From a virus, in the IMG/VR virus record IMGVR_UViG_3300050343_000230, positions 1-64,000 of that record: a DNA stretch of 64,000 nt, one strand, 5' to 3'. The translations under genes were made by a program, and so were the position numbers. The notes beneath the pieces are model-generated. The model was given only the letters and a program-made list of their open reading frames with translations, was not told where the DNA came from and did no database searches. Below, one piece after another: positions 6,873 to 53,792 of this stretch. Positions within the stretch are counted from its first letter, which is position 1; each line of letters opens with the position of its first letter.

Positions 6873-7463
6873 ATGACACGTATTTCCGCTTACGCTTCTC
6901 CTTTGATAGGCCAAACTGTTGGCGGAGATATTGACCCTGACATCTTGGCGCGAGCTTCTTTGATTCAAAAAGGGCAAGAGAATGGGTTAATTCCAGAGAT
7001 GGCAACCCCTGGCAATCCTGTTGCTGTTGAAATTCAACCTTTTCAGACTTATCTAAACAGTACCCAATTAGATACTGGATTGGATGCTACACCTTCTGGT
7101 AGTGATCTTCCTGCTACTCCTGAAAGTCCCAAGCCGATGAGCGAGCTGGACTTTTTTGAAAGACTACTGAAGACTCAAACAGATGCAAAGATGTATGAAA
7201 ATAGCCCAGAAGTAATGAAGGCAAAAACTGATGAAGCCTTAAGACTGATGAATGCAATTGGTGATCGTCAACAGAAATATGGTTGGCAGTCACAACTGGT
7301 TGGCTTTGCTTTAAATAAACTGCCAGACATGCTGTCTGCTGGGGCACGTAATCGTAATTACTACTTAGATCAACTAGTAAGTAAAGGTCCAGCAATTAGC
7401 CAAGCCGCTTCAAGTATGTATACAGGAGCAGGAACTGGTAATTACTTTGGCAGAGGAGTCTAG
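6873..7463 (+). CDS. Hypothetical structural-operon protein (196 aa)
   Basis: Soluble, helical protein with a central acidic helix (MSELDFFERLLKTQTDAKMY) and a Gly-rich C-terminal end (YTGAGTGNYFGRGV). Not recognised. Five bases separate it from the preceding stop. Confidence 0.65.
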   Translation: MTRISAYASPLIGQTVGGDIDPDILARASLIQKGQENGLIPEMATPGNPVAVEIQPFQTYLNSTQLDTGLDATPSGSDLPATPESPKPMSELDFFERLLKTQTDAKMYENSPEVMKAKTDEALRLMNAIGDRQQKYGWQSQLVGFALNKLPDMLSAGARNRNYYLDQLVSKGPAISQAASSMYTGAGTGNYFGRGV

Positions 7464-7481
7464 TAGCTGTAAAATATTAAG

Positions 7482-7979
7482 ATGGCAGGCCTTAATTCCG
7501 CGCCCTCGTCTGTTGCCACTTCTTTCCTGAATCAGACCGCTGGAACCAATACTTCTCAGTTTTGGAATCCCAGCAATATGGCAAACACCTGGGGAATCCA
7601 AAACCCGACACCCACAACATCAACAGGAGGTAATATGGTATTTCCATGGGCAGCCGCAGCAACCGTAGCAGCTCCTCTAATCGGAGGTCTGTTCCAAGGC
7701 AATGCGCAGAATCAAAAGCGAGAAGGAGCTAAAGAAGCTGTTGGCTTGCAGAATGCCATGCAGCAAGACACGGCATTGGCTGGGTTTGGTGCACAGGAAT
7801 TAACAAGAGATAATGATTGGCAGAGGCAACTAGCAGGTCAAATTGCGATGCTTGATTTAAGAAATAGTCCAGGTTACATCGCTGACATGTCGAGGCAAGC
7901 AGGCTTCGCTGGTTCTCTCGCTGGCCAATCACCGGCAACATTAGCTAGAGCAAATGCAATGTTTGGAGGTTTCGCATGA
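7482..7979 (+). CDS. Small virion-like protein with one hydrophobic segment
   Basis: 165 residues. A Ser/Thr/Asn-rich N-terminus leads to MVFPWAAAATVAAPLIGGLF, a single probable membrane segment at residues of about 52-71, then a long Gln-rich helix. This layout (linker, hydrophobic segment, amphipathic helix) resembles internal virion proteins ejected by short-tailed phages, but there is no sequence match I can name. It overlaps the next gene by four bases. Confidence 0.65.
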   Translation: MAGLNSAPSSVATSFLNQTAGTNTSQFWNPSNMANTWGIQNPTPTTSTGGNMVFPWAAAATVAAPLIGGLFQGNAQNQKREGAKEAVGLQNAMQQDTALAGFGAQELTRDNDWQRQLAGQIAMLDLRNSPGYIADMSRQAGFAGSLAGQSPATLARANAMFGGFA

Positions 7980-14561: not shown

Positions 14562-16942
14562 TGGCCGGAACGAGCGCCCGTCTAAGAGAAATCGTTAACT
14601 CATACATCGAAAGAGATGGTAATGAGTACGTTGACACGGGCATTGTCGCAGGTCATATCGCTCAGATGAAGCTCTTTGGTATCCGCCAAGGTGTTGAGTT
14701 CTTCCCTTCACAAGATAACTTCGGGAATCAGCGAAAAGATTTTATCGATAAAGTAATTAAATACAACAAGCTAGACACAAGACTTGATTCGATATGGGAT
14801 TATTTTCTTTGTGATGGAAAAGGGCTTTTCTACATCAGACCTACTAAAAATAATTATCGTCTCTATTATTTCCGTAGCCATGAGTATCGCTCTTATTACA
14901 ACGTAGATGGTGAATTAGAAGAAGTCGTAATCATCTACAGCTATAAAGTCAAGACTGGAAAAGGAGGCATTTACCAGGACATTGGTTTGTCCGGACTAAG
15001 TGGTGCCACTGATCATGAAAATCCTGGACAGAAGCGTTACATCCGTTTGTCAATCAAACCTGATGTTATCGAAGAAACTCACTCAGAAGGTGAAATTTCA
15101 TTTGACAATGTCAACATGATGACCCCTGGCAAAACCCAGAAATTTGCCAATGAGCTTTTATATATTCCTTGCGTTGAGATCTTCAACAACCCCAAGGGCT
15201 TCTCCATGGAAGGCAGTGGGGAATTTGACCAATTAGCCAACCACATCATTACGCATGATGAGTTGGTACGCAACATGAAAAAGAACTTGCAGTTCTTTGG
15301 TAATCCTACGTTGCTTTCTTCCCGTCCCAAGACGGATCTGATGGAGCCAGGGGGAGGTGGGGATGGATCTGCGCAACGTCCCTCTATTGCTGCAAACTCA
15401 GGTTTCAATAGTATGTCGCCAATGTCGCGATCTACCTTTAAACAAGATCCTATTCAACGTGGTGTTGACGGACAACTCCGTGTGCCACGTGTTATTGCCA
15501 ACCTTGAGCCTAACGATCGAGTTGGTTATATTGTTCCTGATGCAATTTCAGGTGACCAGAATGCATTTGTACGACAATATAGAGAAGAGATTCGTACAGC
15601 CCTTGGAGGTGTAGATGAACTTTCAATCTCCGCAGGTGTTACTGCGACCGAATATAAAAGTTTGTTTGGTCGTGTTGCAGCCACCAGCAAAAAGAAAGCG
15701 AATTCGATTTATACGCATGGGCTCTGCCGATGCATGGAACTAATCATTTTTCAAGAGGAACAACTCTTCAAAGATACATTGGCAGCTGCTGCACAATTTG
15801 AAAAACCAATCACGCCTTCGCCAGGAAGTGGTCCAGAAGAAATGCAGTTTTATCGCGAGGCGATGGAAGAATATGACCAGCGTGTAAATCAACTTATGAT
15901 GGCATGCGTTAAAGCACAGATGATTCCACCTGGTGTTAGGGGACTAATACCAGATGGAGACATTACAATGCTTTGGCGTTGGCTTGGGCCGGTTTATGAA
16001 GAATCGACTCAAGATATCCTGAACAATTCAATTGTTGTAAGAAACTTACAAGAATTGGGTGTTGATAGCATAGAAGCACTGAAATATCTTTTCCCTTCAA
16101 AAACAGAAGAGGAAAGAGCGGAGATGCTTTCAGGATTTCCGTTCAGGATGGTTAACGAGTTACAAGGTGCTTACAACCAATTCTCTCGTTTGATAGGGGG
16201 CATGATGCAGACCCCTCATCCCCAATCTCCAGATTTGCCTATGGCAGCTGACCCGAGATTGGACCTTACTCCATATCTGTATCGAACACTAGAAGCATTA
16301 CAAAAGGAGATGAGTTATGCAGGACGCTTCCGTCCAATCGATCCCACAGATGAGCCAGCCATCCGTGGCCCCGAGCAGTTACGTGGCGGCAGCACCGGCA
16401 GCTCCGGTAGCGGCTCCTCAGGCAGCCCCGGCTCAGGTGGGGACGTACTTCCCCCAGGCGGTGCCCCAGGCGGCTCCAGCCTCGACTACCAGTTACCAAT
16501 CAAACCCGTCAGCATTCGTCCCCCCTTCCCAGGGCCAGGCGGATCAGGGGAACCCATGGGAATCGGCCTTCAACAAGGTGGTGAACCTACTGGGCAGTCC
16601 GGTGCAATCCCCGTTCCAGGGAGCACCATCACAGGCCCCGGTTCAGACTCCGGGTCAGTATACCCCGGCCAATTGGGGTCAAACAGCATCGACCCAACCC
16701 GACGCATCAACGAGCTGGGGTCAGCAGACCTCGCAAACAAGCCCGACCTCATACAGCAGCTCTTCCCAAACTTCATCGATCAACTCCTTAGCCGACGTGG
16801 CGGATCTCCTTCAGTGGAGTCCGGAGAGTCAGATGGTAGTGGCGAACTACGGGACGGAAGCGCCAGCGATTCTAAACCAGTACGCTCTAAACCTGGAAGG
16901 AATGCTGGACAGCGCGGTCGCGTGGGGAAGCGAGGCAACTAA
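14561..16942 (+). CDS. Portal protein with overprinted C-terminal tail
   Basis: 793 residues. The portal is the dodecameric ring through which DNA enters and leaves the head. Support: size, place between terminase and capsid, and a sequence with many mixed alpha/beta stretches (YFLCDGKGLFYIRPTKNN, KLDTRLDSIWDYFL). The folded part probably ends near residue 585 (ALQKEMSYAGRF). After that comes a Gly/Ser/Pro-rich tail with one helix (INELGSADLANKPDLIQQLF). That tail, 208 codons, is read in a second frame by the scaffold-like gene at 16317. Such a long tail is unusual for portals. Confidence 0.85.
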   Translation: MAGTSARLREIVNSYIERDGNEYVDTGIVAGHIAQMKLFGIRQGVEFFPSQDNFGNQRKDFIDKVIKYNKLDTRLDSIWDYFLCDGKGLFYIRPTKNNYRLYYFRSHEYRSYYNVDGELEEVVIIYSYKVKTGKGGIYQDIGLSGLSGATDHENPGQKRYIRLSIKPDVIEETHSEGEISFDNVNMMTPGKTQKFANELLYIPCVEIFNNPKGFSMEGSGEFDQLANHIITHDELVRNMKKNLQFFGNPTLLSSRPKTDLMEPGGGGDGSAQRPSIAANSGFNSMSPMSRSTFKQDPIQRGVDGQLRVPRVIANLEPNDRVGYIVPDAISGDQNAFVRQYREEIRTALGGVDELSISAGVTATEYKSLFGRVAATSKKKANSIYTHGLCRCMELIIFQEEQLFKDTLAAAAQFEKPITPSPGSGPEEMQFYREAMEEYDQRVNQLMMACVKAQMIPPGVRGLIPDGDITMLWRWLGPVYEESTQDILNNSIVVRNLQELGVDSIEALKYLFPSKTEEERAEMLSGFPFRMVNELQGAYNQFSRLIGGMMQTPHPQSPDLPMAADPRLDLTPYLYRTLEALQKEMSYAGRFRPIDPTDEPAIRGPEQLRGGSTGSSGSGSSGSPGSGGDVLPPGGAPGGSSLDYQLPIKPVSIRPPFPGPGGSGEPMGIGLQQGGEPTGQSGAIPVPGSTITGPGSDSGSVYPGQLGSNSIDPTRRINELGSADLANKPDLIQQLFPNFIDQLLSRRGGSPSVESGESDGSGELRDGSASDSKPVRSKPGRNAGQRGRVGKRGN

Positions 16943-17315
16943 CACCCTGATGGGTTATGCCAACTTCTCCGTCAATGAGCATCGCGAGAATCTGGCTTAC
17001 AACGAAATTCTTACTAACCCTGACATCTTGTCGGATTACACCTTGAATTTCTTTGGTCCTCAAGGTCCATATCCAGTCTACGAATCTGAAGCAGAATTAG
17101 CTACCCCTGGTTATCCAACTCAGCAGGTATCTAACGAGCAAATGATTCCTGGCGCAAACTTCCCTGCACCTCCACAGGCTGCTGCTCCTCAAGCTCCCCA
17201 AGATTTCTGGGGTTCTTTCAAGCAACAGATGGATCAAGATCCTACGCAAGCATGGCGTGTGATCAACCAGGCTTCACCTCAGGTGATGGCTAACAAACTC
17301 TTCGTCATGGAGTGA
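16317..17315 (+). CDS. Scaffold-like protein overprinting the portal gene
   Basis: 332 residues in the +1 frame relative to the portal, sharing 626 bases with it. The start is well supported: AAGGAG at 16304-16309, seven bases before ATG. The first 200 residues are Pro/Ala/Gln/Ser-rich with one helix (WESAFNKVVNLLG); after the overlap comes a more ordered part (SLADVADLLQWSPESQMVVA, LAYNEILTNPDILSDYTLNF). Its place between portal and capsid is the usual place of the scaffolding protein or prohead protease. I see no protease motif, so scaffold is preferred, by inference. Confidence 0.75.
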   Translation: MQDASVQSIPQMSQPSVAPSSYVAAAPAAPVAAPQAAPAQVGTYFPQAVPQAAPASTTSYQSNPSAFVPPSQGQADQGNPWESAFNKVVNLLGSPVQSPFQGAPSQAPVQTPGQYTPANWGQTASTQPDASTSWGQQTSQTSPTSYSSSSQTSSINSLADVADLLQWSPESQMVVANYGTEAPAILNQYALNLEGMLDSAVAWGSEATNTLMGYANFSVNEHRENLAYNEILTNPDILSDYTLNFFGPQGPYPVYESEAELATPGYPTQQVSNEQMIPGANFPAPPQAAAPQAPQDFWGSFKQQMDQDPTQAWRVINQASPQVMANKLFVME

Positions 17316-17319
17316 TCCA

Positions 17320-17841
17320 ATGCGTAACGCTTTGAAATATGGTATTCCTGCGGCTGCCGGTCTCGGCGCTGCAGGTCTTGTTGCCAGTCAAGGCGGGAAT
17401 CCTGTTGAAGCCGGTGGCGCTGCTATTGCTGCTGGCTTAGGCGGTGCTGCTGGTTTAGTAGGCGCTCGTCTACTTGCGGGTAAATACAGCCCTCAATTAG
17501 TATCTAAAATCCAACGTGGTTTAGGTACAGTTGAGGATCGGCTTTCCCAGGCAAGTGCAAATCGCCCTGATGGTTCGATGAGAGCCAATGCCTTACTGGA
17601 TTTATCTAGCGCGGCAGGTAACATTGCTGATTCAGTCACTGAACGTGGCATGGCTAAAGCTACTGCTGCTGGCCTAGTTCCAGCTTCTGCTGCTACTGCT
17701 GCCCTTGGCGGCTATGGTGCAGGACAAGCAGTTGGTGCTGTTGCCCAAATGATTGGCATTGATCCAGAACTCCCTGGTTCAAGCAATACAGTTAATTCCC
17801 GATTAAACATGCAAGGTATGAACTACCTTCCCATGTATTGA
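17320..17841 (+). CDS. Glycine-zipper head-region protein (173 aa)
   Basis: Very Gly/Ala-rich. Hydrophobic segments are GIPAAAGLGAAGLVASQGG, AAIAAGLGGAAGLVGARLLA and, near the end, VPASAATAALGGYGAGQAVG. Soluble helix in between. Same composition as the series at 4.2-7.9 kb, although it lies between scaffold and capsid. Possibly a membrane-active virion protein. Confidence 0.65.
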   Translation: MRNALKYGIPAAAGLGAAGLVASQGGNPVEAGGAAIAAGLGGAAGLVGARLLAGKYSPQLVSKIQRGLGTVEDRLSQASANRPDGSMRANALLDLSSAAGNIADSVTERGMAKATAAGLVPASAATAALGGYGAGQAVGAVAQMIGIDPELPGSSNTVNSRLNMQGMNYLPMY

Positions 17842-26523: not shown

Positions 26524-26886
26524 ATGTTCAAAACGGAGAACGAACCGCTCGCACTCCTACTTGAACTCCGACCGAAACAAGCGAAAAAACGTTTTAGAGA
26601 TGAAATATACAAAGCCTGGAACTATAAATGTGGATATTGTGGAAACGAGGCAACCAGCCTGGACCATATTATCCCAAAATTTAAATCGGGTTCTTCCAAC
26701 CGAAATAATTTAATTCCTTGTTGTCGTACATGCAATACTAATAAAGCTTCAAGCCCAATGGAAGAATGGTACAGACAACAAGAATTCTTTTCCCAAAAAA
26801 AATTAGATGCTGTTCATGAATGGACAAAAGGAGATAAAATAGTATTTACTTCTGATATGAGCCAGCTAAGGCTAGGTGTTGCATAA
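26524..26886 (+). CDS. HNH endonuclease (120 aa)
   Basis: A compact HNH domain: C-x-x-C zinc pair (CGYCGNEATSLDHIIPK), the catalytic DH, a long loop with SNRNNLIPCC and the second pair (CCRTCNTNKAS). It nicks or cuts DNA with a metal ion. In phages such genes are free-standing homing endonucleases or packaging helpers. Its place between regulators and a huge virion gene, away from terminase, suggests homing. It ends directly before the next ATG. Confidence 0.85.
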   Translation: MFKTENEPLALLLELRPKQAKKRFRDEIYKAWNYKCGYCGNEATSLDHIIPKFKSGSSNRNNLIPCCRTCNTNKASSPMEEWYRQQEFFSQKKLDAVHEWTKGDKIVFTSDMSQLRLGVA

Positions 26887-48057: not shown

Positions 48058-48993
48058 TTACTGGGAGGTAGCGAAAGGAGCGAAGACCCCTGATGGGAAA
48101 CGCTCATCATATGAATGATCTCTATCCCACGCTGCTTTCCATTCAGACAGCGAATGGTTAGGAGGAATCGTATTATACCAATTCTCTGTTGCATCTAAAT
48201 TAATCTTGCTACCCTCATTTGGCGCTTCTAAATCAGGACCAATGACCCACGTTAAAGGGTTTTTTGTCACAGTATTTTCAAAATTTACTTGCACAAAAAT
48301 TCCTGATGCAATCTCCGAAAATACAGGTGTATAAGCACTTAGTTCATTAAGCGTGACAGTTTGCGTAACTACCTGAGGGATTTCCAGGAACCCTGCACTG
48401 CTGTTTCCAAAATCTTCTTGCAACATATAAGCAACAAGAAAATCTTCAGTCATAATAAAGTTTTCTTCAATCTCTGAAAACTCAACAACTAAACCAACTC
48501 CATACTGGAATAGTTCATTGCGTGTAGCAGACACGCAGAACATGTACTCACCTGGAACAAGGTCGTAAAATAATTCGTCGCCCTTGTTATAAGCTTTTGG
48601 ATCATATGTATTGTATAAATCTGACTGACCACCTGCTACATCACCCTTGTAGGCACGGGGTTCTTGATGAATAACCCGACTTTCAATCGGGTTTTTATTC
48701 ATGTCATAGAAAGCAATCTCAAAACGAGTGGAGGTATCACTAAACCGATTGGTAGGTACGTAGTTACTAGTAGCTAATTTAGTGCCTGCTTTAATAGCAA
48801 TTATGCAAGCATCATCTAATAGTGTAAGTTTGAACCAGTTGTTATAAGTGTCATTGCCATACCCCCCTTGAATGATCTGACTTTTTGGTCCAAGCGTTCC
48901 TGTAAGAAGACGCAAGGATGTGCGATCAAAACGACCTAGGTTAAGGGGATTAAATTGTGATCGCTCCCTTTGAGGTACGCTCGGGTTCGTCAT
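48058..48993 (-). CDS. Hypothetical beta-rich protein (311 aa)
   Basis: GNDTYNNWFKLTLLDDACII and YDLVPGEYMFCVSATRNELF resemble pre-peptidase/bacterial jelly-roll modules that bind surfaces. No signal peptide. Overlaps the HNH gene by 44 bases in another frame. A virion or host-contact protein is possible. Confidence 0.6.
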   Translation of the reverse strand: MTNPSVPQRERSQFNPLNLGRFDRTSLRLLTGTLGPKSQIIQGGYGNDTYNNWFKLTLLDDACIIAIKAGTKLATSNYVPTNRFSDTSTRFEIAFYDMNKNPIESRVIHQEPRAYKGDVAGGQSDLYNTYDPKAYNKGDELFYDLVPGEYMFCVSATRNELFQYGVGLVVEFSEIEENFIMTEDFLVAYMLQEDFGNSSAGFLEIPQVVTQTVTLNELSAYTPVFSEIASGIFVQVNFENTVTKNPLTWVIGPDLEAPNEGSKINLDATENWYNTIPPNHSLSEWKAAWDRDHSYDERFPSGVFAPFATSQ

Positions 48994-49690
48994 CTATATC
49001 TTGCCGAGTCTGCGTATTGCTTTCTATTTTAGGATCTCTAATTGTTGGCCTATACAACTGTTTTAATAGGTAATCAATTGTCTGTCCTTTGCTTTGACGC
49101 AAAGCCATGATGGCATGTTTCTGCGGATCCCAATCCAGGGACAAGTATTGGAATGAAACTGGCCTGCGCTTAGCAGAAGAATTAAAGCTGGAGGTTGTAT
49201 GTAAAGGATTTACACAGCTTTCATCACCACAAAGATTGGCTGCTGTTGTTACGTACATCCTGCCCACGTCACCCCAGAAGGCTTGGTAAATAATTTTCTT
49301 TGTCTGCACACGGTCAGTAAGACGACCAGTGTTGTGGCTTCTCCAAGAGGGATAAGACGGTGCTTTAAAACTTTTACGCACATGCCAGCAACCTTCGTGA
49401 GGTGCCTCTGGATTATCCATCACCACGTTTTTCATCACCCTAGTAAGGATGTTCTGGTAATCTCTGTGGATAAAGTTCAGATCAAGACCACAAACGTTGG
49501 ATTCGATCTTCAAAGCGCAGTGATAACACCAGTGTCTTTCTGAGTCTCGTATGCGATGACCGAGATGGCAGGGAAAACCAAGGTAGAAACCTTGCTCTTC
49601 AAGGGAACCATTGGGATCTAGGTAACGAAAACTCCTGTCAATCACTGCTTTCTTGCCTCTGATGCCCTTCCTGTCATCAACATTGGCCAT
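48950..49690 (-). CDS. Zinc-binding HNH-type endonuclease (246 aa)
   Basis: Two zinc ribbons are visible: CHLGHRIRD with HWCYHC near residues 41-58, and a C-terminal CGDESCVNPLHTTSSFN near 155-170, whose C-x(4)-C-V-N-P-x-H is typical of phage HNH endonucleases of the homing type. Between them is a basic stretch (WHVRKSFKAPSYPSWRSHNT). It lies just beside the inverted-repeat array at 49.7 kb, so it could act there. Promoter-like TAGAATAAAA lies 43 bases upstream. Confidence 0.75.
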   Translation of the reverse strand: MANVDDRKGIRGKKAVIDRSFRYLDPNGSLEEQGFYLGFPCHLGHRIRDSERHWCYHCALKIESNVCGLDLNFIHRDYQNILTRVMKNVVMDNPEAPHEGCWHVRKSFKAPSYPSWRSHNTGRLTDRVQTKKIIYQAFWGDVGRMYVTTAANLCGDESCVNPLHTTSSFNSSAKRRPVSFQYLSLDWDPQKHAIMALRQSKGQTIDYLLKQLYRPTIRDPKIESNTQTRQDIDDEPERTSKGAITI

Positions 49691-49700
49691 AGTTCAAGCA

Positions 49701-49876
49701 AAGTTGAGGAGTTGAGGGTCCAATACTAACTCTTTTATTCTATGCAGTGTCATTTTAGCCCGACATTTTAGCCGTAACTTTAGCCCTCAGACAGCGCAGG
49801 CCCAAAATCGCGGCCAAAGTTGCAGGCCAAAATGACACTACATACATGAAGGGAGTAGGAATGAACCCCTCAACTT
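49701..49876. repeat. Nested inverted-repeat array, six iterons
   Basis: The 261-base gap between two leftward genes contains a near-symmetric structure. Outer arms AAGTTGAGG (49701-49709) and CCTCAACTT (49868-49876). Inner perfect arms AGTGTCATTTT (49746-49756) and AAAATGACACT (49829-49839). Inside, TTTAGCC stands three times (49754, 49767, 49779) and its mirror form GGCCAAA or GGCCCAAA three times (49799, 49812, 49825), with 12-13 base period. The inner arms align over about 46 bases. Candidate origin, partition site or operator. Confidence 0.75.
49733..49742 (-). promoter_or_regulatory. Promoter-like element TAGAATAAAA
   Basis: Reads 49742 to 49733, 42 bases before the HNH gene start, and only four bases from the inner arm of the inverted-repeat array, so proteins bound at the array could control it. 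Confidence 0.45.
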
Positions 49877-49927
49877 CTGAACTCCAACCGTCGCATTTGA
49901 ATCTCAGACTGAGACTGGTTAGCCATT

Positions 49928-49946
49928 AAAAAAGCCCCGAAGGGCT
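49928..49946 (-). terminator. Rho-independent terminator
   Basis: On the minus strand: AGCCC (49946-49942), loop TTCG, GGGCT (49937-49933), then a run of T (49933-49928). It begins five bases after the glycosyltransferase stop and ends the leftward primase/glycosyltransferase transcript. The UUCG tetraloop makes it strong. Confidence 0.88.
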
Positions 49947-49951
49947 GGTGG

Positions 49952-51208
49952 TCAGTCAGCCACGCCTACTGGTTCAAGCTTCTTTCCACCCTTGCGGCGA
50001 CGGCGTACCTTGGGGCGGGGGGGCTCGATCTCTTTCAGGGTCTCAGCAAAGACTTCCTCGAACTGGTAAGCGACGGTATCCCACTGGTACTTGGTATCCG
50101 TGGCACGTTCATAGCAAGCCTTGCCAACCTCTTCAAGCTTCTCGCGATTCTCATATAAGTCGCAAAGGATCTCACAGAGATGCTCGGCGCTAGGCACCGG
50201 CATATCACGGTTGTAGTTCATGTCCACATCAATGAAGCAGTTATCGATCAATGGTGCGGCACCTTCAAAGATCTCCTTGAGACTCGTGTGATTAGGCACC
50301 ACCTGGGCGATGCCACAGGCGGCGGACTCATGGTTGACTAACCCGTGTCCCTCACCTTTACAAGTATTTACCGAGACATCGGCCGTGTTGTAGATAAGAT
50401 TCAGTAACTCAACAGGGACTGAAGGCGGATGCGGAGACTGAGCAGTCATGACGATCCTGCCATTGGGATCCAGCCCACGCTTGAGCATCTCCCTGGAGAA
50501 CAGGGGCATGATGTCCCACCCTTGATCTTTCAATCCCATGTGAAGATACAGCTTGGTATCTGGTCGGCCAACGGCGAACTGAGCAAAAGCATCAATCGTG
50601 ATATCGATGCGCTTACGTCCTTGGTTCCGATTTCCATTGAAAACAATGAAGCCCTCCTCGGGAATGCCGAGTTTTTTCCTCGCTTCCTTCTTATTGACAG
50701 AGAAGAACTGTCCGTCAGTGACGCCGTGGGGGATTACAGTCACAGGCTTTTGGATTCCTGCGGCCATAAGTTCGTAAGCCCCGAAGTCTGTGTAGACAAC
50801 AATGTTGTCCCAGGCATTGGCGTGGTCTTTCAAGCAGCCCGTCCAGCCGTAGCTGTCCATCGGCATGTAAGCAATGAACTTAAAGTGCTTTGCTTCATGC
50901 AGATCCTTGATCTTGGCATAGATCGCATTGACGATCCACGCATCATTATTGATAAAAATCAGATCGGGTTTTTCCTTCTCAACGATCTCGCGGACACGAA
51001 GAGTACCGAAGGGCTCCGTTTGGAAACGGTTGGATGAGGGATACATCTTGAAGTCCTTCTGGAATTCATTTGGATCACCCCACCAGTTATTACCCAATAC
51101 AACGATCTCATATTTATCTTTCAATCGTGTAATCAAATTTTCTGTTACACGAGCAAAGCCAGTACGAGCAACGATGTCACCTGACCATAGGATCTTCGGC
51201 TTCGACAT
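49952..51208 (-). CDS. Glycosyltransferase family 4-like (418 aa)
   Basis: ATG at 51208 is chosen (MSKPKILWSGDIVARTGFAR); the longer frame has a poor start. GT-B features: ILWSGD..ARTGFARVTENL at the N-terminus, VTVIPHGVTDGQFF near residue 180, FNGNRNQGRKRIDI near 210, and the donor-site CKGEGHGLVNHESAACG near 310. It moves a sugar from a nucleotide-sugar to an unknown acceptor. The basic end (PKVRRRRKGGKK) is unusual. It overlaps the primase gene by 32 bases. Confidence 0.88.
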   Translation of the reverse strand: MSKPKILWSGDIVARTGFARVTENLITRLKDKYEIVVLGNNWWGDPNEFQKDFKMYPSSNRFQTEPFGTLRVREIVEKEKPDLIFINNDAWIVNAIYAKIKDLHEAKHFKFIAYMPMDSYGWTGCLKDHANAWDNIVVYTDFGAYELMAAGIQKPVTVIPHGVTDGQFFSVNKKEARKKLGIPEEGFIVFNGNRNQGRKRIDITIDAFAQFAVGRPDTKLYLHMGLKDQGWDIMPLFSREMLKRGLDPNGRIVMTAQSPHPPSVPVELLNLIYNTADVSVNTCKGEGHGLVNHESAACGIAQVVPNHTSLKEIFEGAAPLIDNCFIDVDMNYNRDMPVPSAEHLCEILCDLYENREKLEEVGKACYERATDTKYQWDTVAYQFEEVFAETLKEIEPPRPKVRRRRKGGKKLEPVGVAD

Positions 51209-53792
51209 TAGTATTCTTAACCTTATGTTCGAGCTGTATGTTACCGTAAAAATCACGGTACTTGTTAACATCCTGGGCTAAATCAATCAGGGAAGGATAA
51301 CCAGAATCAGTTTCATAGCTACGGATTCTAATGTTGAACAGCTGAATAGTTCGCTGATTCCCCTTGTAAACATTGAGGTTTAGCTGATGGTTGAGGATAT
51401 CCATGAGCATGTTTTCAAACCGTGCTCGTGACATCATATTCACATTGTTGTTACGGCAAAACTCACCGTAGTTGGCATAGAGCCTTGTCTCTGCGTAGTG
51501 ATAATAAGTACGAGCATCCTTAGCAGCAGGCTTGCAATCACCGATGTAGGACATGCAGTTGTTGTCGAACACGATGTTGGTATGCAGCCAGTCCATGATT
51601 GGATTGGATCGGATGTGTTGTTGCGTCGTGAATTTCTGGAAATAAGCAACCCGCTCTTGGGTTTGTAGCAGATAGCTACGCATGTCCTCTTCTGACATTT
51701 GCAGTACCCAGTTGACCAGTCCTGGCATATAAGGAGCAAACTCTCCAGATGTGGTATGGCGATCACAATTAATCAGAACCCTTTGCTGCTTTGCATTACC
51801 AGTGAAGGGACGATCAAAAGGAATTGTTAAGCGACGACGAAACAAGCCAGAGCTTGGGTCAGTAGTTTGGATCTGTTCGTTGGCTGTGATCATGATCAAG
51901 CCATCAAATTTAAATGTTGATTCTGTCTGCTTGTACTTGTGCTCACAGTTGATCAAGTCAGTACCCGTCAGGGCTTTGAGCATTGAAACGTTGCCGCCGT
52001 AACGCTCAACATCATTGAATAGCAGAAGCTTTTTATTAACAAGTTTGGAGGTTTCAAATCTGTTTTTCTCAAGCCGTTCCATGGTTGAGACTGCTGCATT
52101 GTCGAAACCAACCAGTGCATGACAGAGGTTTGCGAAAGTTGACTTACCGGATTTACCGGGTCCGACAATCTCAACAAAGCGTTGGATACTATCTGCGCTA
52201 GTAAGTACAGCCCTTAACCATGCACGAAGGAGTTGCACTCGCTCCCAATCATTGTGCTGTGTAAATTTCAGCCAGCGAACAATAGGTTCGCAGGTTGCGC
52301 TTGAGTCATACTCATAAGGCAATGAACGGTTGATGTAGTTTTCTTTCTTAAAGCCCTCAATCTCCTCTGTTGCAGTATTGAAAATGCCATTACGGAACAG
52401 GATCAACTCTTTATTAATGTTCCATTCAGAATTCTGCAGTGACTGAGACAACAAAATATACTGATCATTGATGGTGGAAACACCAAAACCCCTTGGCAGT
52501 AGTTCGTTTTTGATACGACTGAGCATGGAGTACAGCTCATGTTTCATCTCAGCTTCTGAAACCCCACTCCACAAACCCCATGCTTCACGTTCATAGATAT
52601 AGAACTGGTTTGAAGCAGGATCAAAGAGCAACTTACCGGCAAACATCTGGGTCAAAATGTCACACAGTTCGTTCGCTGGCGCATTTCGTTTTTTATTCAT
52701 CTCATTACCATCGGCATCGCCATCGAACTGCCGAGACTTTGGGAAGGTTTGCACCCTATTAAATGTGATTTCATCAGGTACTTCGGGTTCAGAATCCAAC
52801 ATTGCTTTCAACATGTCGCTTAGTGCCTCTATTGATTCATCGGCTACCGGCATTGCCCGGTATTCCTGAGATGGCTTGAAGCCATACTGTTTTGCATTGT
52901 GATATAAGGTGCCAGCTGTGATACCACCACCAGAAGAAAATGACCGCCACTTTTGATGGCAGGCACCATTCCTATATTTTTCAGACTGCTTAGACCATTC
53001 ATCCCACTCATCACAGAGTGCTTCATCAACTGAATGCAAGGCTTGACCTGCGGTCAGCCATGCGTCGTAATCATCAGCACATTCGGGAGGCAAAGTCCAT
53101 AATGCTTTGACTGCTTCTTTAACTTCAAAGTCATGGCCTAGTTTTGCATTGATAGCAAAGGATTCGCCATACATACGCGAATGCGTTTCGTTTGGCTTAC
53201 CTTGCTTCATATTCTTCAGTACAATGCCAGCAAGAATCCAATCAGGAATCTCAGGCAATTCTTTAGAAAAAGTGAAGTCCTCTTGCTCTTTCGTGAAGTA
53301 GCCCTCAGTATCCGGGTGCATACCCATGAGGACGCCTTGGCACCGCTTCCAAAGTATTTCAAGTTTCTCGCCATCCCCTTCTGCATGCCAGGCATATTTA
53401 TTACGGATGAACTTATCCCAATTGTTTTTGGAAACACGGTAGAGCTTACGCTCTCTACCCTCTCTGCCACTACAGATTGTCAGGGTTGGAGGGAGTGCTT
53501 CGTTGAGGGGCAATCCACTTTCTTTTTTAATAAGTTCGTAAACAGTAGGGCCATCGATGTCAATCCAGACCAAACCATAGGGCTCGTTGTAAACAGGCCC
53601 ACCAATAAGACCAACAGCTTTGGCACGTCCTTCTTCTAGTTCTTTCCCAACATCTTCTACTGCGTATGGTTTGTTTTGCCAGCCCTGGATGTAAGGGTTT
53701 TTTCTATCACCAATCGGGGTAAGAGGCCAGTCAAGAGGGATTAAGCCAAGATTAATTTCGCCGGGTTTTAATGCTGAAGACATTTGATTCAC
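51177..53792 (-). CDS. Primase-polymerase / SF3 helicase
   Basis: 871 residues. N-terminal prim-pol-like domain with GLVWIDIDGP (metal-binding D78 and D80); a PriCT-2-like middle (DYDAWLTAGQALHS, EWDEWSKQSEKYRNGACHQK); then the D5-type helicase: Walker A GPGKSGKST, Walker B KLLLFNDVERYGG and sensor LIMITANEQ. It unwinds DNA and primes replication. GTG 53792 overlaps the previous stop and has GAGGA before it. This replaces the T4 and T7 types of replicative helicase usual in cyanophages. Confidence 0.93.
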   Translation of the reverse strand: MNQMSSALKPGEINLGLIPLDWPLTPIGDRKNPYIQGWQNKPYAVEDVGKELEEGRAKAVGLIGGPVYNEPYGLVWIDIDGPTVYELIKKESGLPLNEALPPTLTICSGREGRERKLYRVSKNNWDKFIRNKYAWHAEGDGEKLEILWKRCQGVLMGMHPDTEGYFTKEQEDFTFSKELPEIPDWILAGIVLKNMKQGKPNETHSRMYGESFAINAKLGHDFEVKEAVKALWTLPPECADDYDAWLTAGQALHSVDEALCDEWDEWSKQSEKYRNGACHQKWRSFSSGGGITAGTLYHNAKQYGFKPSQEYRAMPVADESIEALSDMLKAMLDSEPEVPDEITFNRVQTFPKSRQFDGDADGNEMNKKRNAPANELCDILTQMFAGKLLFDPASNQFYIYEREAWGLWSGVSEAEMKHELYSMLSRIKNELLPRGFGVSTINDQYILLSQSLQNSEWNINKELILFRNGIFNTATEEIEGFKKENYINRSLPYEYDSSATCEPIVRWLKFTQHNDWERVQLLRAWLRAVLTSADSIQRFVEIVGPGKSGKSTFANLCHALVGFDNAAVSTMERLEKNRFETSKLVNKKLLLFNDVERYGGNVSMLKALTGTDLINCEHKYKQTESTFKFDGLIMITANEQIQTTDPSSGLFRRRLTIPFDRPFTGNAKQQRVLINCDRHTTSGEFAPYMPGLVNWVLQMSEEDMRSYLLQTQERVAYFQKFTTQQHIRSNPIMDWLHTNIVFDNNCMSYIGDCKPAAKDARTYYHYAETRLYANYGEFCRNNNVNMMSRARFENMLMDILNHQLNLNVYKGNQRTIQLFNIRIRSYETDSGYPSLIDLAQDVNKYRDFYGNIQLEHKVKNTNVEAEDPMVR

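Follow-up and report, generated by a model that had tools for sequence, protein, structure and literature searches.

A long imperfect hairpin next to the primase gene is a probable replication origin of S-EIV1-like cyanophages

We analysed a window of 64,000 nucleotides, which corresponds to positions 1 to 64,000 of the 77.5-kb IMG/VR virus record IMGVR_UViG_3300050343_000230. On the minus strand of this window, we found, in the direction of transcription, a gene for a replication protein (51177..53792), a glycosyltransferase (GT) gene (49952..51271), a predicted intrinsic-terminator-like hairpin at the end of the primase-GT operon (49933..49946), the palindromic site GTCTCAnnnTGAGAY (49901..49915), a long imperfect hairpin (49702..49883) and a gene for an HNH/His-Me-finger-like nuclease that is conserved lineage-wide (48950..49690). 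A preliminary description of the sequence had placed a symmetric repeat array between the HNH gene and the GT/primase operon, and this is where it lies, with the terminator-like hairpin intervening on the operon side. The replication protein consists of Prim-Pol, PriCT_2, D5_N and DUF5906 (SF3-type helicase) domains; this architecture is identical in the window, S-EIV1 and BPP-1 proteins, and the window protein is 48% identical to the S-EIV1 primase. The HNH family has an invariant zinc-type motif and a CxNPLH motif and matches homing-endonuclease models weakly. The structure model of the HNH protein is confident (pLDDT 81), and comparison with the PDB gave neither a significant structural match (best E 0.18) nor a sequence match.

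When we scanned the window for inverted repeats with an einverted-like procedure, we found that 49702-49883 is one imperfect inverted repeat of 182 bases with 85 aligned pairs, 63 of them Watson-Crick/identical, and a 10-nt loop. The reverse complement of this stretch matches the stretch itself at 70% over 182 bases (E 3.7e-13). Read in the direction of transcription, the 5' arm on the primase/GT operon side (49798..49883) is followed by the loop (49788..49797) and by the 3' arm on the HNH side (49702..49787), and the HNH start codon is 12 nt further. The outer arms (49701-49713/49864-49876) are 92% complementary across 13 nt, and the inner pair of 11 bp is AGTGTCATTTT/AAAATGACACT. Both of the nested inverted repeats that had been described earlier (outer 9 bp, inner 11 bp) are therefore present, as parts of one inverted repeat; however, the earlier estimate that the arms can be aligned over about 46 bases was too low. 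In the whole 77.5-kb record, this hairpin is the top inverted repeat, with a score of 85 as compared to 38 for the runner-up. A protelomerase target of the telRL type was rejected, as there is no perfect central palindrome and the hairpin has 22 mismatches in its 85 aligned pairs plus an unpaired loop. Elsewhere in the window, at 16301-16650 and 17251-17450, coding sequence is predicted to form very stable RNA folds (roughly –80 to –90 kcal/mol per 200 nt), and these are outside the top inverted repeats.

We collected relatives of this locus from IMG/VR, 80 loci via the GT protein and 80 further matches via HNH alignment that are partly on the same contigs; the isolate among the relatives is Synechococcus phage S-EIV1. 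In these relatives, the block PrimPol-GT-HNH-g311 is conserved, and the conserved order is PrimPol, GT, terminator, hairpin and HNH. In about 55 of the 80 GT-selected loci, the gap contains an inverted repeat that outscores every background window of its locus. Counting a locus as hairpin-bearing at an inverted-repeat score of 49 or more, we found an inverted repeat at this place in 110 loci, which reduce to 51 nonredundant ones. In S-EIV1, the hairpin (7843-7955) again outranks every other inverted repeat in the genome (62 vs 51). Searching related phages had been proposed earlier as a check on the array, and the search shows that its position and structure are conserved across the lineage. 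In L090, L091 and L168-L170, the GT gene has moved behind the HNH gene and the hairpin is still between PrimPol and HNH, directly after the primase gene, which rules out that the hairpin is a companion of the GT gene. The HNH relatives with enough upstream sequence all have a primase gene too, so the hairpin is not separable from either the primase or the HNH gene. In L081, L084 and L093, a 254-codon glycosyltransferase-like gene (phrog_1574) is found between the hairpin arms, which are ~775 nt apart; both arms are retained (51/61 and 54/73 pairs), and the inserted gene runs from +506 to +1271 relative to the GT end in L081 and L084 and from +471 to +1236 in L093. A strong hairpin is missing in some relatives, for example L027, L028, L064, L074, L075, L087 and L089.

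Within the arms of the window hairpin, we found three iterons of ~13 bp on each side. The forward iterons, YTTTAGCC (49753..49785, plus strand), are located at 49753 and 49766 (TTTTAGCC) and at 49778 (CTTTAGCC), with spacings of 13 and 12 (arm tandem-repeat p 0.005), and the mirror iterons (49800..49832, minus strand) are located at 49800 (TTTTGGGC), 49812 (CTTTGGCC) and 49825 (TTTTGGCC), with spacings of 12 and 13. The preliminary description had reported three forward and three mirror copies of TTTRGCC at a period of 12-13; the six sites and the spacing hold, but only five sites are exact and the sixth, at 49800, is one base off. A same-strand triple of TTTRGCC with 10-16-nt spacing occurs once in the genome and in none of 30 Markov shuffles, and this result, together with the rank of the inverted repeat in the record, bears out the earlier impression that the array is too regular for chance. 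No second iteron cluster is found in the 77.5-kb record. The six iterons are thus real, but they are a subclade trait inside one long hairpin and not its defining feature: significant tandem iterons are present in only 10 of the 51 nonredundant relatives. Tandem iterons with a 13-bp period and differing sequences occur in the window, L014, L017, L018 and L021, those of S-EIV1 and L154 are 15 bp, and those of L090, L140 and L176 are 8-9 bp. A pattern search of IMG/VR for tandem TTTTAGCC returned 11 contigs, none of them with the element of the window; most are simple tandem arrays and several are probably coding. Two IMG/VR contigs, L003 (6276-6310) and L008 (9395-9429), have a stretch in common in which TTTTAGCC is repeated within GC-rich complementary segments, and we saw no relation of them to this lineage.

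Two further motifs accompany the hairpin. The first is an AT-rich element in the 3' arm (AAAATGACACTGCATAGAATAAAAGAGT; 49729..49756, minus strand in the window), for which the family consensus over the 3' arms of the 51 nonredundant relatives is the 28-nt motif AatGT.atttA..cTA..AtaAAA.AAA (score 655 vs 410-427 in shuffled sequences). The 3' arm beats the 5' arm for this motif in 40/51 relatives (p 2e-6), and the genomes contain no further copy of it. The second is the palindromic site GTCTCAnnnTGAGAY; the copy by the hairpin is the sole match in the window within 2 mismatches, and perfect copies are found at +62 in S-EIV1, +65 in L033 and +473 in L089. Its half-site AGTCTCA is present in 17/29 nonredundant regions (2.1 expected) and AGACTCA in 14/29 (1.0 expected), in loops and immediately 5' of the hairpin. 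The loop of the window hairpin contains the TCTCATGAGACT of many relatives in only partly recognisable form, as GCGCTGTCTG.

These motifs bear on the main rival to an origin, which is that the element is the promoter/operator of the downstream HNH operon, with the GTCTCA palindromes and the iterons serving as binding sites for a regulator of phage or host origin, and the AT-rich element of the 3' arm serving as promoter. Palindromic sites GTCTCAnnnTGAGAC flank the hairpin, several clades have a TATAAT-like sequence in their 3' arm, and the AT-rich motif is stronger in that arm. The hairpin is also always 5' of the HNH gene or of a small HNH_3-like gene, and in many clades the 3' arm ends near the next start codon, often within 30 nt, as a promoter or leader would; this position counts against an origin. 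However, a promoter/operator leaves unexplained why arms of 70-144 bp are kept complementary via compensatory change, and the AT-rich motif is absent from other operons. The motif is unique in each genome and therefore not a general promoter, so membership in a general phage promoter set was rejected. We consider the promoter/operator explanation unlikely as an alternative, although such a function could coexist with an origin.

To describe how the stem evolves, we compared the arms within and between clades. The arm sequences are strongly divergent between clades. In clade C, both partners have changed in a compensatory manner in 38/59 pairs, around a loop motif that is retained as TTCTCATGAGAC or a near variant; in clade A, 8/50 pairs have such changes; and within clades B and E the sequences resemble each other too closely to inform on compensatory change. 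Template switching can also yield compensatory change in a DNA palindrome, so compensation alone is no proof of selection. Among 27 nonredundant relatives, we counted 89 G.T mismatches, 92 A.C mismatches and 244 transversions. The absence of an RNA-strand preference (89:92) favours a DNA element over a transcript, although individual clades lean to either strand (overdispersion p 0.02).

The same counts weigh on the idea of an RNA leader, in which the transcript forms a hairpin that makes the ribosome-binding site of HNH inaccessible or blocks read-through. RNA hairpins that hide ribosome-binding sites have been described for some phage homing-endonuclease genes. In the window, the minus-strand RNA folds very stably (–92.4 kcal/mol, z –8.5, as compared to z –5.8 for the other strand), and in clade A the 3' side of the outer stem contains AAGGAGG or AGGGGG, which resembles a Shine-Dalgarno sequence. 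In contrast, there is no obvious Shine-Dalgarno sequence in the arm for the HNH gene of the window, several clades favour the opposite strand, and the wide separation of the arms in L081, L084 and L093 does not fit a leader. A cis-regulatory 5' leader would be expected to tolerate G.U and avoid A.C; the window alone is supportive, but the family does not have this pattern, and we rejected it as a candidate. No Rfam family matches the window hairpin at the gathering threshold. Taken together, these data make an RNA leader a very unlikely explanation.

Among experimentally tested systems, the one closest to the hairpin is the archaeal (Sulfolobus) plasmid pRN1. According to Berkner et al. (2014; PMC4234260), the pRN1 origin is a stem-loop ~54 bp after the PrimPol-SF3 gene, beyond a terminator; replication needs it in cis, partial deletion of the stem-loop or deletion of the loop abolishes replication, and relocation of the stem-loop restores it, a dependence demonstrated for pRN1 only. 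These authors describe low sequence conservation and high structural conservation in the stem-loop family, note that in Bordetella phages the gene for the PriCT_2-type primase likewise has a stem-loop on its 3' side, and suggest, without a test, that phages use such an origin. We ran the identical inverted-repeat scan as controls on pRN1, BPP-1, and two further phages with BPP-1-like primases, Acinetobacter phage 4316 and BcepC6B. In pRN1, the top inverted repeat is the tested origin (63 vs 39). In the three phages, the stem-loop 3' of the primase gene ranks first among the inverted repeats of its genome (BPP-1, 88 vs 48; 4316, 59 vs 47; BcepC6B, 86 vs 49), and each arm has two tandem 9-bp iterons (p 0.002-0.006). 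These hairpins are found at L181 6608-6711 (BPP-1 26607-26710), at L184 32337-32438, and at L185 42411-42415 and 1-103. The passages of PMC4234260 consulted make no mention of tandem 9-bp iterons in BIP-1.

The controls also bear on two of the rivals. In pRN1 and the BPP-1-like phages, the downstream genes are unrelated, yet the hairpin has the same placement relative to the primase gene, which argues against a promoter/operator of an HNH operon. Another explanation is that the hairpin is a target of the HNH nuclease or a mobility element (a recombination, resolution or nicking site), with a variant in which the HNH protein nicks the hairpin for rolling-circle or recombination-primed replication. 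The HNH gene always follows the hairpin in this lineage, and the zinc and CxNPLH motifs and the weak match to homing-endonuclease models are consistent with such a role; however, the hairpins of BPP-1 and phage 4316 are followed by a small HTH-like gene instead of HNH, and HNH is a conserved gene of the lineage and no sporadic insertion. We therefore regard a nuclease target or mobility element as most improbable.

The preliminary description had listed origin, partition site, termination site and operator without making a choice, and the comparative evidence favours an origin; none of our results suggests a partition site. We propose that the hairpin array is probably the replication origin of S-EIV1-like cyanophages, of the PrimPol/SF3 stem-loop type as in pRN1, because a hairpin next to the primase-helicase gene is conserved lineage-wide and closely matches the tested pRN1 origin. 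As in pRN1, a Prim-Pol + D5_N/SF3 (D5-type) protein is encoded upstream (directly in L090, L091 and L168-L170, and elsewhere with one gene in between); a large stem-loop, which ranks first among the inverted repeats of the replicon, follows on the 3' side of that operon, beyond a terminator; and structure is conserved where sequence is not. There are also differences: pRN1 has arms of 21 bp and a loop of 58 nt, whereas cyanophage arms reach 144 bp; we saw no tandem iterons in pRN1, whereas some cyanophage clades have them; pRN1 has a pRN1_helical domain where the cyanophages have PriCT_2; and the cyanophage hairpin has conserved loop and flank motifs and usually an intervening GT gene. The Bordetella phages BPP-1/BIP-1/BMP-1, in which the stem-loop is a proposed origin only, share the protein architecture, the rank of the hairpin as top inverted repeat of the genome and the tandem repeats in both arms. 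In contrast to the window, with its 13-bp iterons, they have 9-bp iterons and 48-bp arms, and their downstream gene encodes a small HTH-like protein outside the cyanophage HNH family.

Several observations count against an origin. Across 28 genomes, GC skew at fourfold sites is unchanged across the hairpin (p 0.71), although a change of strand composition would be supportive and not defining, and there is no cumulative-skew extreme at the hairpin in G000 or S-EIV1. The hairpin-less relatives and the three loci with a gene between the arms also weigh against it, as do MR14 and LR797314, SF3-primase phages with more distant primases in which no hairpin is found 3' of the primase gene; the association of primase and hairpin is therefore not universal.

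If the hairpin is an origin, initiation might proceed as follows. The operon whose end lies immediately ahead of the hairpin would supply the Prim-Pol/PriCT_2/SF3 protein, which would bind the repeats on both arms, and the two-fold symmetry would orient two helicase rings in opposite directions, away from one another. The rings would then unwind the AT-rich segment of the arms, perhaps aided by cruciform extrusion of the hairpin, and the primase domain would lay the first primers on the exposed strands. The neighbouring HNH protein may have a role, if any. Dyad origins of herpesviruses (oriS/oriL) and of the SV40 type have palindromic initiator boxes around an AT-rich centre, and in SV40 an SF3 double hexamer is used. 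The likeness to the cyanophage hairpin is in this arrangement; the sequences and proteins are unrelated, so this is an analogy of mechanism only. Phage P4 shares an SF3-type primase-helicase and an alpha-dependent crr directly 3' of alpha, beyond a terminator, with iterons in both orientations; in contrast to the cyanophages, P4 needs two separated regions, and its crr is no long hairpin (top inverted repeat 39, background level). A P4-type ori/crr was rejected, as it requires two separate iteron regions and the 77.5-kb record has a single iteron cluster.

A broader reading, which we put forward tentatively and hold to be possible rather than probable, is that this is a new form of stem-loop origin, with a hairpin of up to ~380 bp, initiator sites placed symmetrically in the arms and a palindromic conserved tip, that loads two PrimPol/SF3 rings by way of a cruciform and is common to a large cyanophage lineage, BPP-1-like phages and archaeal plasmids. 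Under such a scheme, pairing would be kept by selection because cruciform extrusion is required to load the two rings.

Our literature searches returned no published origin for S-EIV1-like cyanophages, and the lineage has many relatives in IMG/VR. The 51 nonredundant elements, with their compensatory changes, iterons, conserved tip and AT-rich element, give the family a defined anatomy and allow the origin proposal to be tested with plasmids or in S-EIV1, a phage that is in culture. They also suggest how origins may be located in other PrimPol/SF3 replicons, namely by looking for the best inverted repeat of the genome 3' of the primase gene.

Some minor observations concern individual records. 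In Pseudomonas phage MR14 (L187), there are two strong inverted repeats, at 66-188 (score 90) and 283-381 (score 64). They are close to where the record begins and, in its coordinates, distant from the primase gene, and they could be an origin or an end structure. In the S-EIV1 record (L101 / KJ410740, 7027-7725), the annotated HNH gene (7027-7467) is too short; its reading frame continues without a stop to 7704, and in this extended form it is homologous to the window HNH. AHV82136 and AHV82137, tiny plus-strand ORFs that overlap the extended part, are probably not genes. In many relatives (among them L033, L045, L060 and L071), the hairpin and the HNH gene are separated by a small HNH_3-like ORF of ~110 aa, which in L026 (7818-8828) is fused to the HNH protein.
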